From the NCBI GenBank assembly GCA_003671275.1, contig QWPB01000054.1, positions 1-38,229 on the forward strand: DNA of 38,229 nucleotides. Direction: 5' to 3'. Below the pieces are notes generated by a model, which saw only the letters and a list, made by a program, of their open reading frames with translations, was not told where the DNA came from and searched no databases. Position 1 is the first letter of the stretch. Every line of letters starts with the position of its first letter. The translations under genes and the position numbers were made by a program. Source of the stretch: Planctomycetota bacterium (GTDB lineage Bacteria > Planctomycetota > Planctomycetia > Planctomycetales > Planctomycetaceae). Shown here piece after piece: positions 24,503 to 31,686 of this stretch.

Positions 24503-26386
24503 TTACTCGGATCGGCGTCCGCCACTTTCGCCGCCATTCCCGCCAGCCGGAGGTCCACCGGCACCCGGGGCCCCACCGCCAAAGGCCTGACGCATTTTTT
24601 CGATGCCAGCGGTGTACTCGGCCTTGTTGAGCGAGCCGTCCTTGTCGGCATCCATATCGCCGAAGGCGGTCGCCATTCGCTCGCCCGCTTCTTCCTTACT
24701 CAGCTTGCCGTCACTGTTGGCGTCACGCTGCTCGAAGGTCATCCGACCTCGTCCCCCGCCCGCACCGGGTCCGCCGCCACCCGGTCCCGGCGATGGAGGT
24801 ACCGCGGGTGTCGGGGGAATCTTCTCAGCGGGTGTCTGTGCCTTTTCGAGATTGGCCTGGGTTTCTAGGAGGGCCAGTTCTTCGGGAAGCTGGCTGCGGG
24901 CGTTCATAATGACCTGCTCACCTTCCTGCACGCCTTCCAGCACTTCGACGTGGGACTGGTTACTTTGGCCGACTTTCAGCAGGCGTTGCTCTGGACCATT
25001 TTTAGAGAGAACGAAGGCGTACTGCTTGTTTCCGACAGCCAGCACGGACTGGACGGGCATTTGCAGGACTGACTCGCGATTGTCGACCAGAATCTCGACC
25101 TGAGCCGTCAAGCCGGGGCGGAGGGTCTTGATGATCTCGGGGTCATCCGCCAGCCGGACTTCGGTTTCGTATTCTCGCAGATCGTAATTCGGCCACCGGC
25201 CCTGCATGGGGACGGACGAGACGAACGACACGACCCCCTTGAACTGCCGATCCGGGAAGGCATCGATCTTGATTCGCACGGGCAGGTCTTTGCGGATGTT
25301 GTTGATGAGCGACTCGTGCAGCCGGACATCGACCTTCATCTGAGTGAGATCGGGCAGGTTGATGATCGCCTGCCGTTCCCGGACGGTCGCCCCTTGCTCA
25401 ATCGATTCACCACTGCCGCGTGAACTGCTGGACTGGATTGTCGCGTAGACAATTTGCCCGGACTGGGGAGCCCGCATTGTGCAGGCTTCAATCTGCGAGT
25501 TGAGTCGGACGAGCTTCTCCTGTTCCACGGCACTCTTGAGCTTCTGGGCCTCATAGTCCTTGGAAGCCTGGGTCTCGGCGGAATCCGCCTTGAGTTTCAC
25601 GCGGGCCAATTCCAGTTCGAACTCTTTCGCATTGGCCTCCAATTCTTTGACCTTGCGCTTCTTGTCGTAGTCCTGCAATACCTTCAGTTTCTCCTTGGCA
25701 CCACGCAGCTTGAACTCGGCCTGTTTGACGGCCACGCGGTTGGCTTCCATTTCGTTCTGAGTACGGTATCCCTTCTTCACCTGCTGCTTGGTGAAGTCGT
25801 AGTTGTCCTGGGCCCGGATCAGTTCTTCCTCGGCAATGGCCACGCTACCTTCCAGCTCTTTTTCCTGCTGGGGGTATTCGCCCTGGGTGTACTTCTCCAG
25901 ATCGAGCTTGGCCAATTCCCATTTGAGTTCCGCTGCCGAGATATCGCTCAGGTTCTGAGTCTTCGTGATCTCCAGTTTTTCCTTGGCCTGGATCTCCGCC
26001 GAATCGGCCTGGGAAACATCAATCTCCAACTGCTTGGCTTTCTCTCGCAGCTGGGAGGAGTCCAGTTCACAGACCACTTGATCCTTTTGGACGATCGTGC
26101 CTTCCGGGACAATGCTGATGATGGTGGTCGTTCCTTCGACCGCGCTGCTCATCGTGGCATTCCCCAGGCTGTCCAGGGGGCCTTGCGCGGCGAGGCTGAT
26201 CAGGAACGACTTTCGTTCCACAGGCTTCACAACAAAGCGGGTGAAGTCCTGGGAATGTCCCCGTGTGAAGCGGCTGAGCCATTTCTGGGGTTCGACCGAA
26301 CCGGTTGCGACCGCCGTGGCCGCTCCTGCCACGCCGCCCAATACAAGGACCGTTGTCCAGAGGGGGGACGATTTATTGGTTGTCAT
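24503..26386 (-). CDS. Membrane-fusion (HlyD-type) efflux adaptor with C-terminal EF-hands
   Basis: The 627-residue protein has an N-terminal membrane anchor or signal (residues 10-29) and the usual adaptor plan: lipoyl half (VPEGTIVQKDQVVCELD, about 93-109), a long coiled coil to about 300, second lipoyl half (MRAPQSGQIVYA), a beta-barrel (LPDLTQMKVDVRLHESL) and a membrane-proximal domain. After a Pro/Gly linker it carries two canonical EF-hand loops, DANSDGKLSKEE (555-566) and DADKDGSLNKAE (579-590), each with Ca2+ ligands at positions 1, 3, 5 and 12. Adaptors normally end before this, so the Ca2+-binding tail is unusual. Its start overlaps the TolC-like gene by 14 bp. No pump gene follows. 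Confidence 0.9.
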   Translation of the reverse strand: MTTNKSSPLWTTVLVLGGVAGAATAVATGSVEPQKWLSRFTRGHSQDFTRFVVKPVERKSFLISLAAQGPLDSLGNATMSSAVEGTTTIISIVPEGTIVQKDQVVCELDSSQLREKAKQLEIDVSQADSAEIQAKEKLEITKTQNLSDISAAELKWELAKLDLEKYTQGEYPQQEKELEGSVAIAEEELIRAQDNYDFTKQQVKKGYRTQNEMEANRVAVKQAEFKLRGAKEKLKVLQDYDKKRKVKELEANAKEFELELARVKLKADSAETQASKDYEAQKLKSAVEQEKLVRLNSQIEACTMRAPQSGQIVYATIQSSSSRGSGESIEQGATVRERQAIINLPDLTQMKVDVRLHESLINNIRKDLPVRIKIDAFPDRQFKGVVSFVSSVPMQGRWPNYDLREYETEVRLADDPEIIKTLRPGLTAQVEILVDNRESVLQMPVQSVLAVGNKQYAFVLSKNGPEQRLLKVGQSNQSHVEVLEGVQEGEQVIMNARSQLPEELALLETQANLEKAQTPAEKIPPTPAVPPSPGPGGGGPGAGGGRGRMTFEQRDANSDGKLSKEEAGERMATAFGDMDADKDGSLNKAEYTAGIEKMRQAFGGGAPGAGGPPAGGNGGESGGRRSE

Positions 26387-29222
26387 TGTCAGGCCCCATC
26401 TCGGGAAGGATCGGCGGAACCGGACGTTCCTCAGGAGTGTCCGTGTCGATCAGGTTGCGATACTGGGGATCGTTCCAGATCCCGTCTTCGCCAATCTCCA
26501 TCATACCCATGTCGCGATAAATACTCAGCCGGTTCTGCTCATAAGCCACCCAGTTCTGGATCAGTGAGTTTTGTGCAGAGACGATGGAGTTCAGAGCTTG
26601 CAACAGATTGTTGCCAGCCAGTCCGCTCCGTCCACTGCCGCCGCCTCCCCCCGTATTGACAGCGGCCGGGGCGGTGGCATCATCGACGGCAGCTTCATAC
26701 TGCCGGGCAGCCAGACGCAGCTGCAATCGGGAAGTCTCCAGGTTACGCTTGAGAACGGCCAGTTGTCGCCAGTTTCTACGGACCTGATTCTTGACGGTGT
26801 CTTCCAGTAGCATAAAGTCTCTGCGAGCCCGCTGATAGGTAATCAGCGATGCACGGTAGTTGTTTCGGTCATTCATCTGGTCCAGGGGGGCTGTGACCTG
26901 GACACCTGCCCGAATCTGACTGCGGTTGCCCCGGAAGTCGAACGGCTTGTTCCCGCCCGAGTTGCGAACGTCCCCCTCGACCACCACATTAAGGCCTGTT
27001 TGCAGACGGTTGGCGGCGATCTCCACTTTACGACGGGCATCGGTGACCGACGCTTTTTCGTTCATCAGGTCCACGCGATTCTCGACGGCGAACTCCACGA
27101 CATAACTCATGTCGAGGCCGAAGTCCGGAATCTCAATCTGCTCCACGCGCAGCCCAATCTCCACGACCGACAGGTTGCGGGCAATCTGCAGCAGCCGTTG
27201 CTGTCCCTGAAGGATCTCGTCCCGCATGGTCAACCGCAGCATTTGATCCGCTGGCAGCTCCAGTTCGTCGCTGACTTCTCCCTCCGGGATCGGTGGCGGA
27301 GCGGCCCGATCAGCAGGCTTTTGGGCAGCGGGGGAGTGGATGCTGTTGGCCAGTTCCGTGGTCGACTGTTTCAATTCTTCGAGACGGGCCCGGGCATCTT
27401 CGAGCAGACGCATGTCGCGGGCGATATCGGACTGCACCCGTCGGCGATCCTCTTCGTTCTCCAGGTCCGCCAGGCGACTTTCCAGCTTGGAGTTCAGGTT
27501 CTGAACATCCTGATCCAGCACGGCAAAACCTTCGGCCTCGACCTGGTGGATCAATTCCACAAACCTCGCATTGACCTGCTGAAGCTGTTCGGTTGTGGGG
27601 TCTTCTTCGTCAATCTCACCCCAGGGAATGATGAAGTCCATGACCGCTTGTTCCAGCGACTTTAGCTGGGGATCGATGACCGCAAAGGGCCCCAGCATGC
27701 TGTCGTCGATGGTCAGCTGGATGTCCGTTGGCAGTCCCAGGCCGAGCTTGAGTGAATCGAGACCGTCCTGAAATCCGCGCTCCTGAGATCGCAACTGGTT
27801 GATCGAGTTGGCTAGGCTGCCTTGCAGTTGAAGCACGTCCAGCGGGGTGGGGGTGACGCGGATGGCCTGGATCAATTCTTTCAACGCCAGCCGGAGTGTG
27901 TTGACCTCTTCCTGTGTCCCGTCCTGACCAGGCACCAGGTTTTCTCCGAATTGCAGCACCTGGGCCTCCTCCTCGGCAGACATGGGCCCGACCCACAACA
28001 GCAGCTTGCGTTTGTCGTTGTAAACCAGTGAAAGTTCCAGCGGCTGGGGAATCGCCACTCCCGGCAGCCACTTGTCCAGATCCGCGCTGGCGAACTTTCC
28101 CTTCTGTCCCGAGTTCGATTGAAGCTGGGCCACTTGCCGCTTCAGCCGTTCGATGTTCTCTTCTTGATTGCGAATGCCCTGGATCTGCTGGATCAGGCTG
28201 AGATAACTGCCCGAGCCATCGGAGACGATGTTGGTGAACAACGACTGTCGGAACCGGGCGAGAGACCGGGTCTGATAGAGCAGATCGCGTTCGGCCTGCG
28301 TCAGGTTTTCCATCACCACCTTGCGACCGGCCCCGTTGATCAATGGTTGCACCAGTGAGAACGACAGGACCGATGCGGAATTGGTCTGATTGGGCCCCGA
28401 GAACAGCCACAAGGTGTTGTTCGCTAGTTCGGCGGCGATCTGGCCTCCGGCGGGGAGCAGCTTGCGCACGCCGAAGCGGGAGTTCAATCCCGATGAATCA
28501 CCCGTACCGTGAGGGATGAAGGTATTGTTAAGCCCCAACGAGGGCTCGCCACCGCCGACCCCCAGGTAACGAACGCCGAATTGAAAACGCTCAAAAGACA
28601 CATCGAGTGCAGCCAGGTACATGTTCTCGACTTGTGTCTGCAACTCGCGGCTATGAATCTGCGATAACTCAACACAGTCAGAAAGCTTAAGCTTTTGCAG
28701 GGCCGGCATTCGTCCGGTGTAGTCGCCGGTCACCGGGTTGATCATCTCGGCGCTCAGGCCGTACTTGTTCAGCCACTGCGGGTTCTCGACACAGAAGCTG
28801 TCCCCCAGATTGTGCCAGCTCTTGTAACCGCCGATCCCGTCCGAGCAGTGCATGTAGGCATGTGCTGCCGGATCGTCCGGGGGCAGGGGGCCCTTGTCCG
28901 GATCATACGGATCGTAAAAGCGGCTTTCGGGATGGGGGGTGACATCAAACCGCGGCAACTGCCAGCGGAAGTCGGTCATCCGTTCGCTGATCGCTTCGTA
29001 GGCATCGCGGTCCGCCTGCTGCCGCCAGAACGCGCGGGAACATCCAGTCAGCCCCGCCAGCATCACGCCCGCTGCGGCCAATCGCCAAGCCACATTGGGC
29101 AATTTTCGCCGCCCCGTCGCGGGAAGAGATTCATGGGGAGAAGTCACAGTCATTGCCAAACTTTCTTCGTCCCGGGAGCTGCGCAACAACCACTGAGTCG
29201 ATAGGTGCCAGAGTTTCATCAC
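26373..29222 (-). CDS. Very long TolC-family outer-membrane efflux lipoprotein
   Basis: At 949 residues this is about twice the usual TolC length. It has a lipobox LTGC (Cys61 from the first ATG), then GVRYLGVGGGEPSL, and helical hairpin repeats such as RFRQSLFTNIVSDGSGSYLSLIQQIQ and RNNYRASLITYQRARRDFMLLEDTVKNQVRRNW, typical of the outer-membrane factor barrel-tunnel. A long charged coiled-coil insert (about residues 540-660) separates the two halves. It should form the exit channel for the adaptor encoded next. The ATG at 29222 overlaps the marR stop as ATGA and has GGAGG at 7 bases, so coupling is likely; the ATG at 29153 would put the signal at the very N terminus. Confidence 0.85.
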   Translation of the reverse strand: MMKLWHLSTQWLLRSSRDEESLAMTVTSPHESLPATGRRKLPNVAWRLAAAGVMLAGLTGCSRAFWRQQADRDAYEAISERMTDFRWQLPRFDVTPHPESRFYDPYDPDKGPLPPDDPAAHAYMHCSDGIGGYKSWHNLGDSFCVENPQWLNKYGLSAEMINPVTGDYTGRMPALQKLKLSDCVELSQIHSRELQTQVENMYLAALDVSFERFQFGVRYLGVGGGEPSLGLNNTFIPHGTGDSSGLNSRFGVRKLLPAGGQIAAELANNTLWLFSGPNQTNSASVLSFSLVQPLINGAGRKVVMENLTQAERDLLYQTRSLARFRQSLFTNIVSDGSGSYLSLIQQIQGIRNQEENIERLKRQVAQLQSNSGQKGKFASADLDKWLPGVAIPQPLELSLVYNDKRKLLLWVGPMSAEEEAQVLQFGENLVPGQDGTQEEVNTLRLALKELIQAIRVTPTPLDVLQLQGSLANSINQLRSQERGFQDGLDSLKLGLGLPTDIQLTIDDSMLGPFAVIDPQLKSLEQAVMDFIIPWGEIDEEDPTTEQLQQVNARFVELIHQVEAEGFAVLDQDVQNLNSKLESRLADLENEEDRRRVQSDIARDMRLLEDARARLEELKQSTTELANSIHSPAAQKPADRAAPPPIPEGEVSDELELPADQMLRLTMRDEILQGQQRLLQIARNLSVVEIGLRVEQIEIPDFGLDMSYVVEFAVENRVDLMNEKASVTDARRKVEIAANRLQTGLNVVVEGDVRNSGGNKPFDFRGNRSQIRAGVQVTAPLDQMNDRNNYRASLITYQRARRDFMLLEDTVKNQVRRNWRQLAVLKRNLETSRLQLRLAARQYEAAVDDATAPAAVNTGGGGGSGRSGLAGNNLLQALNSIVSAQNSLIQNWVAYEQNRLSIYRDMGMMEIGEDGIWNDPQYRNLIDTDTPEERPVPPILPEMGPDNDNQ

Positions 29223-29707
29223 GCGGCCTCCCCGGATCGAACTGCGCGCGAGGCCACCACCTCTGACTCACGTGCCGTGAGGGCCAGAACACGACGCCAG
29301 CGGTCCAGAAGCAAATGCAGCTGGGACTGCTCCTCGATGGTCAATCCTTTCAATGCGTCTGCCATTCGTTGCTGGCGGAGGGCATCGATTTGTGCCAGCT
29401 TGTCGCGGCCCTCATCGGACAGCAGGAGCACGCTGCAACGTCGGTCCAGCCGGGACCGCATGCGAAAGAGCAGACCATCCCGCCGCATCCGTTCGATCAG
29501 CGTCGACACGTTGGATTCCGAGGCTCCCAAGGCTTCCGCCAGCTCGGTTTGCGAGCACCCCTCCGGACCGGCGATGGAGATGGTCTCTAGAACCGCCGCC
29601 CGGGGTTCGTTGATTTGAAATGGGGCGTAGGCGTCCTCGAGTCGTGATCGCAGATGTTCACTGATTCGCTGTACGGAAATCGCGATCGGGAATGGCGTCT
29701 GAGCCAT
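29219..29707 (-). CDS. MarR-family transcriptional regulator
   Basis: The 162-residue product has a MarR winged helix: GCSQTELAEALGASESNVSTLIERMRRDGLL for the recognition helix region (about residues 50-80), the wing RSRLDRRCSVLLLSDEG, and helical ends for dimerisation. Such proteins bind palindromes and let go when a ligand binds. It is the first gene of an operon with the TolC-like and adaptor genes and overlaps the former by 4 bases, so it probably represses its own operon. The candidate operators lie upstream at 29785-29831. The ligand is unknown. Confidence 0.93.
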   Translation of the reverse strand: MAQTPFPIAISVQRISEHLRSRLEDAYAPFQINEPRAAVLETISIAGPEGCSQTELAEALGASESNVSTLIERMRRDGLLFRMRSRLDRRCSVLLLSDEGRDKLAQIDALRQQRMADALKGLTIEEQSQLHLLLDRWRRVLALTARESEVVASRAVRSGEAA

Positions 29708-30625: not shown

Positions 30626-30703
30626 AGCCGATAATGCCACCGTTTCGGCATCCAGCGGGCAGCCGATGTTCATCCATCGAAATGGGACGACCGTAAAAAT
30701 GCC

Positions 30704-30737
30704 GCATGCCCGGAAGAGATGACTCGACCGGGCATGC
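30704..30737 (-). terminator. Intrinsic terminator for the Cys-rich gene
   Basis: A 10-bp perfect stem (GCATGCCCGG/CCGGGCATGC) with a 14-base loop is followed on the minus strand, after GGC, by an ATTTTTACG run. It lies 74 bases after the stop of the Cys-rich protein gene and between convergent genes. Confidence 0.75.
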
Positions 30738-30810
30738 AGGATTCATCAGTGCTGTCACGCGTTACCGCGAGTGCTGTGCTGTTCGTGAGCGACCATCAGG
30801 CCGCTACGAT

Positions 30811-31134
30811 TTATTCAGCAGTCACGCAGCAAGCCGCATTCTCGGTGCAGCATGGGCTGCCGGGGAAGCAGCAATCCGCTTCCTTCTGGCAGCATGCAGT
30901 TGTGGCACATGCGGCGGTCGAGCAACAGCTCGACTGGGCTGTACACAATCCACTCTGGCAGCAGCTTCCTGTGCCATCCTGACAGCATGTTCCCCCAGCG
31001 GCGAGGCAGCAAGCTGCCCCCGGAGGACAGCACGAGCAGCAGCTGGCGCCCCCCGATGCCTGCGAGAGAGTGGCCCAGCCCACAAGGCCGAGCACTGCGG
31101 CGGAAATCACAGTAAACAATGAACGACGGTTCAT
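30811..31134 (-). CDS. Exported, extremely cysteine-rich small protein
   Basis: The 107-residue product has a signal peptide (MNRRSLFTVISAAVLGLVGW, cleavage near residue 26). The mature part of about 81 residues has 22 Cys: ten CC doublets (32-33, 35-36, 42-43, 50-51, 58-59, 70-71, 81-82, 88-89, 95-96, 102-103) and singles at 64 and 76. Most doublets are 5-6 residues apart. Spacers are small residues (PPGAA, LAAGGT, QDGTGS, FPGSP, TENAA). It could bind thiophilic metals such as Cu or Zn, or be disulfide-linked into the wall, as Cys-rich proteins are in planctomycete envelopes. I know no named family. The start has an upstream GAGTCAATT leader with weak site. It follows a second Cys-rich gene by 85 bases. 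Confidence 0.8.
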   Translation of the reverse strand: MNRRSLFTVISAAVLGLVGWATLSQASGGASCCSCCPPGAACCLAAGGTCCQDGTGSCCQSGLCTAQSSCCSTAACATTACCQKEADCCFPGSPCCTENAACCVTAE

Positions 31135-31219
31135 AATTGACTCCTGAAGCCGAGTCCGGAAACGGCTCGGCAGAATGAGGGTTGCTAAGCGAACAATTCG
31201 CCTGCACAGATCAAAACGA

Positions 31220-31597
31220 TCAGCCCATACCATTTTTGTCAGGAGGAGGAGTCATGGGACTCCGCGTCAAACCGATCATGCGTTGATTCGATTCGATGAC
31301 CACTTCACAAATTGCCGGGGAGCTGGACCAGACCATTTCAGGCTGCAGGAACAGCGTCATACTCACTAAACAGCACCCGCAACAGGGCTTGCTTCCCTCC
31401 CCGGAAATTGGGCATCCGGAAGAGTCGTCCGGAGTTTCCGTGGCCGGGGTTTGGCAGCAAGTCGCCTGGGAAGAGCTGGATGGCGGGGTCCGACAGGCGT
31501 GTTCCGCGATGTCCACACGATCATCGCTCAAACAGGTTCCCATGCTGGGAAAACCCGCCTGCCAGACAATCAGAAACATGAGCAGGACACGGAACAT
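31220..31597 (-). CDS. Exported Cys-containing small protein, partner of the Cys-rich gene
   Basis: The 125-residue product starts with a hydrophobic export segment (FRVLLMFLIVWQAGFPSMG) and holds 10 Cys, including CC at 47-48 and CCGCC at 72-76, followed by a second hydrophobic stretch (LVSMTLFLQPEMVW) and a tail with SPMTPPPDKNG. Short planctomycete and proteobacterial proteins with Cys pairs, a final hydrophobic stretch and a Pro-rich end often neighbour copper genes; I note this as a faint likeness only. It lies 85 bases upstream of the Cys-rich gene on the same strand, so the two may be one transcript. Confidence 0.65.
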   Translation of the reverse strand: MFRVLLMFLIVWQAGFPSMGTCLSDDRVDIAEHACRTPPSSSSQATCCQTPATETPDDSSGCPISGEGSKPCCGCCLVSMTLFLQPEMVWSSSPAICEVVIESNQRMIGLTRSPMTPPPDKNGMG

Positions 31598-31657: not shown

Positions 31658-31686
31658 AAACAGCCTCGGCAGGGCCGAGGCTGTTT
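31658..31686 (-). terminator. Bidirectional intrinsic terminator
   Basis: A 13-bp perfect stem (31658-31670 with 31674-31686) with a 3-base loop lies between the Fe-S carrier gene and the Cys gene; on the minus strand it is followed by TTTTCATG. It should end the Fe-S carrier transcript and separate it from the Cys-rich pair. Confidence 0.85.

Follow-up and report, generated by a model that had tools for sequence, protein, structure and literature searches.

A putative metal-responsive leader open reading frame ahead of an exported CC-repeat protein in planctomycetes

The control of copper genes by a nascent exported peptide has so far been worked out in a few proteobacteria. In the cutFOG operon of Rhodobacter capsulatus, CutF is exported by Sec and has a Cys metal motif and, at its C-terminus, a proline motif; the Shine-Dalgarno (SD) sequence of cutO lies under a stem-loop that opens when metal slows the nascent chain (PMC9973294). 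CruR of Bordetella pertussis, a DUF2946 protein, carries a Cys motif and RAPP, and copper relieves its arrest (PMC9426467); the arrest has been shown in vitro (PMC12992588), and a few CruR homologues were reported in Planctomycetes by Roy et al. (PMC9426467). In the present study, two adjacent minus-strand genes, P0002 (upstream) and P0001 (downstream), have been analysed in a 38,229-nucleotide (nt) stretch of DNA from a planctomycete bacterium, hereafter the window, in which all coordinates are positions. We consider it probable that this pair is a metal-responsive leader-peptide switch together with its output gene, an exported metal-thiolate protein, and that the metal is probably copper; a planctomycete branch of this kind would extend the known form of control. 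The two genes are as follows.

31220..31597, minus strand: upstream open reading frame (uORF) P0002, 125 residues with 10 Cys, the proposed metal-sensing leader with a CutF/CruR-like layout
30811..31134, minus strand: downstream gene P0001, 107 residues, the proposed extracytoplasmic metal-thiolate CC-repeat protein

The original prediction described two neighbouring genes for Cys-rich exported proteins, 85 bases apart, and this description holds in its details. The intergenic gap is 85 nt. P0002 has the 10 Cys and the CCGCC that had been noted, the latter within KPCCGCC in a Cys core that follows an export-type N-terminus and precedes the C-terminus MTPPPDKNGMG. P0001 contains 22 Cys and 10 CC doublets, all within residues 28-107, in agreement with the mature product of about 81 residues with 22 Cys proposed earlier. 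A hydrophobic, export-type N-terminal segment can be read from the sequence in both proteins; that of P0002 is hydrophobic by hydropathy, and its signal peptide is putative.

The planctomycete unit resembles CutF in layout rather than in any demonstrated sequence similarity, and other CutF-like ORFs also precede metal genes. Read against the simple CutF-like rule (PMC9973294), P0002 has a suitable length (125 residues), a PPP that ends 7 residues before the C-terminus, a suitable gap (85 nt) and, in fold predictions, RNA structure covering the downstream SD. However, the planctomycete Cys core is built on CC and CCGCC whereas that of CutF is CxxxC, most planctomycete relatives end in CVW[R/L]C, the putative stall codons are themselves the anti-SD arm, and the output is a CC-heptad protein rather than a multicopper oxidase. 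CruR is similar in being a uORF with a Cys motif and a C-terminal arrest-type motif at the head of a copper-related operon. In P0002, no DUF2946 profile match was found in Pfam at E up to 5 and the RAPP motif is absent, the C-terminus being SPMTPPPDKNGMG. Moreover, CruR uses Rho termination and copper switches its operon off, whereas the conserved feature in planctomycetes is SD pairing.

Several lines of evidence support the leader reading. First, the pair is conserved. Both genes recur side by side within the same genus, and the planctomycete neighbourhood survey proposed as a check in the original prediction finds them together in 63 of 80 loci examined in one planctomycete class. In these 63 loci, the upstream short ORF joins a Cys core to an export-type N-terminus and closes with a C-terminus from a small set of types conserved up to the stop, namely CVW[R/L/I/T][C/N/K] and close variants, PPxPPP, HVLRC and HVRLQI. 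P0002 is of the PPP type, and the CVW[R/L]C type is found in most genomes. Since the end motifs were drawn up by visual inspection of the same loci, 63 of 80 is a descriptive figure. Contigs with names among the relatives belong to Gimesia, Planctomycetaceae and Pirellulales, and the gaps between uORF and downstream gene are approximately 75-160 nt. The ratio of nonsynonymous to synonymous substitution rates (dN/dS) is below 0.45 for both genes in every close pair where it could be computed. Because of this ratio and the homologous pairs in 63 loci, the pair is not a chance arrangement. An untranslated frame and non-conserved Cys had been named as grounds for rejecting the prediction; both frames are under protein-level selection, and the Cys are largely conserved, with one deviating Gimesia subclade.

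Second, the end of the uORF is predicted to pair with the SD of the next gene. The elements of this pairing in the window are listed below.

31241..31249, minus strand: proline codons CCT CCT CCT, from sequence and fold; proposed stall site and anti-SD
31247..31254, minus strand: 5' arm of the long-range helix within the uORF, UGACUCCU, from the fold; Met-Thr-Pro codons
31239-31245, minus strand: alternative register of the 5' arm, CUCCUGA, from the fold
31138..31145, minus strand: 3' arm AGGAGUCA, which includes the P0001 SD AGGAG (31141-31145)
31149..31171, minus strand: intergenic stem-loop GCCGAGCCGUUUCCGGACUCGGC beside the SD, from the fold

In the fold of the window, UGACUCCU pairs with AGGAGUCA (z -2.38, equalled by 3 of 200 shuffles), and predictions for 39 of 62 pairs likewise join the uORF end to the SD. 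As a control for composition, uORF ends were matched with the SD regions of other genomes in 20,000 permutations. True partners gave -14.8 kcal/mol versus -11.7 kcal/mol for mismatched ones, a strength reached in none of the permutations, and with one pair per genus (n=37) the z value was -7.9. For contiguous pairs beyond the SD core, the observed value was reached by 2 (all pairs) and 27 (per genus) of 20,000 permutations. Downstream start codons were chosen with a preference for an SD, which does not bias the comparison of cognate with non-cognate partners. Only the final 30-45 nt of the uORF carry the signal (z -5.9 and -5.2); little is seen in windows farther upstream or between the genes, where the strongest value, at one position, is z -2.4. 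The partner sequences differ between genera (CUCCAGUGC/GCACUGGAG, CUCCACUG/CAGUGGAG, CUCCGAUUG/CAAUCGGAG, CUCCGUUGU/ACAACGGAG and UCACGUUCU/AGGACGUGA), and the pairing has therefore survived sequence change in both partners. With the uORF end held open, predicted SD accessibility rises from 0.01 to 0.36 in the window (controls 0.00 and 0.04) and, on average over all pairs, from 0.16 to 0.27 (controls 0.18).

Third, the same codons are doubly constrained. In 11 independent close pairs, the proportions of synonymous (pS) and nonsynonymous (pN) differences in the last 12 uORF codons are 0.19 and 0.03, respectively, compared with approximately 0.45 and 0.17 in the remainder of the ORF; requiring the motif in both members partly favours low pN and leaves pS unaffected. 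No comparable dip is seen at the end of the downstream gene in these pairs. At the level of sequence, constraint on both kinds of site suggests that the peptide as well as the RNA is preserved at the 3' end of the uORF. Because of this constraint, the anti-SD pairing and the conserved C-terminus before the stop, P0002 looks like a regulatory uORF in character, and not a second metal or wall protein.

Herein, we propose how such a switch might operate. P0002 would be translated and its export begun, and its Cys core (CC...CCGCC) would sample a thiophilic metal, most likely copper. The C-terminal codons would encode a stall-prone peptide, PPP in the genus of the window and CVW[R/L]C, HVLRC or HVRLQI in relatives, and the mRNA of the same codons would base-pair with the SD of the next gene. 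A ribosome dwelling at the uORF end would keep the helix open and the downstream gene would be translated; upon quick termination, the helix would re-form and the downstream gene would be kept low. The exported P0001 might then bind metal with CC pairs that recur every seven residues, serving as an extracytoplasmic buffer or store. Since this output would detoxify or store metal, stalling that is prolonged rather than relieved by metal, and that frees the SD, would be the sensible sign. To our knowledge, the CVW[R/L]C end has not been described as an arrest motif, and its role in arrest is putative.

Fourth, metal genes stand behind related uORFs. A profile of the CVW type finds relatives in 93 of 347 genomes of the class, and where the next gene is not a CC-heptad gene, a metal gene often follows. 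These include a CusB-type adaptor with a CusA/CzcA-family resistance-nodulation-division (RND) pump (loci L179, L202 and L210), an HMA protein (L207 and L210), a YHS or TRASH protein (L195 and L216), an outer-membrane efflux protein (OEP; L213) and a Csp3-like protein (L198, E 2e-5 against 5fig); other Cys-rich exported proteins follow in L178, L182, L185 and L217. The CusB/HlyD_D23 domain occurs 9 times over 88 downstream genes and does not figure in the list of 25 families drawn from 103 upstream genes, and the SD pairing recurs at the corresponding position in 23 uORFs that stand ahead of other genes (z -2.8, p 0.003). A Csp1-like protein and a copper P-type ATPase come after the pair in genome G062; in G150 (L048:2371-3540) a sigma factor comes after it, together with an HMA/MauE fusion and another exported, leader-like ORF of the CCC type. 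Because of the CusB/CusA, Csp-like, HMA, copper P-type ATPase and Cu/Zn superoxide dismutase contexts, the last described below, the neighbouring genes point most likely to copper, with other soft metals still conceivable.

The same leader-ORF switch might respond to a signal other than copper, such as zinc, cadmium, mercury, silver, the thiol/disulfide state or the export pathway. CusA/CzcA-family pumps carry other metals too, CC pairs are redox-responsive, not all CutF-like proteins are Cu-specific (PMC9973294), and export is sensed by other arrest peptides (PMC10987492). However, the nearby Csp-like storage proteins and the copper P-type ATPase are copper-typed, and the downstream families are metal genes, not Sec genes. 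We regard a non-copper signal as unlikely.

Several observations weigh against the copper-switch reading. No copper genes adjoin the pair within the window, and HMA (3) and OEP (2) are also found upstream of some uORFs. The PPP-type uORF of the window has no significant match to the CVW profile (none in G000); what links the two types is their layout, their partner gene and the SD pairing. The predicted opening of the SD is modest on average over all pairs (0.16 to 0.27), and in the closest relatives, G001 and G002, the fold predictions leave part of the SD exposed and masking the uORF end does not increase its accessibility.

Two further arrangements were seen among related uORFs. In L205, L207, L209, L211, L212, L189 and L201, the uORFs end in ...RC and are followed by an exported protein carrying the motif HKPGQHGGxxxxxGxDxYHAEA and by a CusB-like adaptor; the exported protein (L205, L207) has no Pfam match. 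In L214 and L215, leader-like ORFs stand ahead of MacB/FtsX-type ABC permease operons.

Taken together, the downstream proteins approach a strict CC heptad: CC-to-CC spacing is exactly 7 residues in 365 of 512 listed (71%), and 96% of the Cys lie in CC doublets. The CC doublets every 5-6 residues that were first described can be refined accordingly; in P0001 itself, the CC starts are 3, 7, 8, 8, 12, 11, 7, 7 and 7 residues apart. Profiles of the family match 18 of 170 genomes of the planctomycete family (A1) and 81 of 397 genomes of the class, or 46 of 185 genera (A3), with only two matches outside the class in a phylum-wide sample. The original prediction knew no named family for the first of the two products, and profile searches in Pfam, NCBIfam and PHROGs gave no match for either P0001 or P0002, including DUF2946, YTV and metallothionein in Pfam at E up to 5. 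P0001 has no match among solved structures or plasmids, a Gimesia homologue has none among phages, and a first scan of genome contigs with P0001 alone gave none. Alignment A6 showed no usable pattern, and the CC-heptad family was not found described in literature searches. A single-sequence AF2 model of P0001, considered with regard to the four-helix bundle of Csp proteins, had a low pLDDT of 56 and was not used. A G035 match to P0001 (E 9e-4) was discounted as a frame arising by chance. Several leaderless A3 matches (e.g. L141, L142, L143 and L146) are unrelated Cys-rich proteins, out-of-frame matches or contig ends.

P0001 resembles Csp1/Csp3 in being a small, Cys-rich, proposed copper store, and Csp-like genes lie near the pair (G062) or behind a related uORF (G205); however, it has CC-x5 repeats and matches neither NCBIfam (including TIGR04401) nor the solved structures. 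With approximately 20% Cys and small spacers it also resembles metallothioneins, from which it differs in being exported (predicted) and built on CC-x5 repeats, and no metallothionein profile matches it in Pfam or NCBIfam. Membership of the pair in the DUF2946, Csp, metallothionein or YTV families was considered and is not supported.

P0001 might instead be a disulfide cross-linked envelope protein and not a metal-thiolate protein, which we consider rather improbable. CC-rich repeats elsewhere form disulfides, and this counts in its favour. Planctomycete walls contain Cys-rich YTV-domain proteins (PMC8567305), and P0001 is likewise exported, Cys-rich and planctomycete, but it is small, lacks a YTV domain (Pfam) and follows a metal-type leader ORF. 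Moreover, metal genes accompany the leader family, the neighbours in G062 are copper-typed, and in G581 a CC-heptad stretch is fused to a Cu/Zn superoxide dismutase. Envelope cross-linking, one of the two options first offered, has gained no positive evidence; neither YTV nor any other domain was matched.

In that G581 protein (L147:8522-9127, outside the class), the CC-heptad stretch is N-terminal to the dismutase domain (Sod_Cu E 1.5e-41), and the fusion is a natural link between CC repeats and a copper enzyme. The downstream protein is internally doubled (38 Cys, 19 CC) in L043:5408-5968 and L088:8035-8595, followed in L043 by a Csp1-like protein and a copper P-type ATPase. In L124 (G395, contig C18), two neighbouring CC-repeat stretches match the family profile and are possible tandem paralogues. 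In L106 and L107 (G085 and G080; Gimesia-like genus g56), the downstream protein has 8 Cys instead of 18 and several His, and the leaders have 7 Cys instead of approximately 10 and a His-rich middle. This joint loss of Cys suggests that sensor and output switch metal ligands in step in this subclade.

A third alternative, in our view distinctly improbable, is that both genes encode co-working structural exported proteins, such as a metal chaperone pair or an envelope unit, with the upstream C-terminus acting as a functional protein motif. The pair is conserved, and protein-level selection, export-type N-termini and Cys are found in both members. However, synonymous constraint and SD pairing are restricted to the 3' end of the uORF, conservation is low over the body of the upstream protein (mean column identity 23-24%), and related uORFs sit ahead of unrelated effectors. 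Thus, of the two-protein metal or wall unit in the original prediction, the conserved two-gene unit and its exported Cys-rich product are retained, and metal is favoured by the CusB/CusA, Csp-like, HMA and YHS genes, but two co-acting structural proteins are not. As the case cautions, neighbouring Cys-rich ORFs are not necessarily two co-acting proteins. Plain translational coupling without sensing, in which uORF translation opens the SD helix to give a fixed ratio of two products, is very unlikely: the helix alone would couple the genes and a ribosome at the uORF end is predicted to open it, but gaps of approximately 75-160 nt are long for simple coupling, and the C-terminal peptide is conserved as amino acids (pN 0.03) with the Cys core kept.

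Beyond the window, we advance more tentatively, and as a possibility we would not yet favour, a class-wide planctomycete Cu-responsive nascent-peptide switch in which the arrest codons are the anti-SD. It would employ a new CVW[R/L]C arrest motif beside proline-run, HVLRC and HVRLQI ends, and, in addition to a new exported CC-heptad metal-thiolate family, it would control genes for Cus-type efflux and for Csp-like storage. If true, dozens of natural variants would form a comparative set for how metal on a nascent chain controls the ribosome, the planctomycete branch would have a different C-terminal motif and an anti-SD built into its putative stall codons, and the output family would represent a novel type of exported metal-thiolate protein.

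Terminator-like hairpins also fold at both positions where terminators were said to frame the pair.

30704..30737, minus strand: terminator-like hairpin 3' of P0001, followed by GGCAUUUUUA (-30.1 kcal/mol for 30690-30745)
31658..31686, minus strand: hairpin before P0002, the terminator of the preceding Fe-S_biosyn gene (-23.5 kcal/mol)

Each hairpin is followed by U-rich sequence on the minus strand, and because hairpins and U-rich stretches flank the pair on both sides, a two-gene transcript is plausible. The gene preceding the pair is of the Fe-S_biosyn (IscA-type) family, and the gene after it encodes an alpha/beta hydrolase on the opposite strand. Farther along the window, at 24503-29707 on the minus strand, lie an HlyD-like adaptor with an EF-hand-like C-terminus, a TolC-like protein and a MarR-type regulator, as judged from their translations only.
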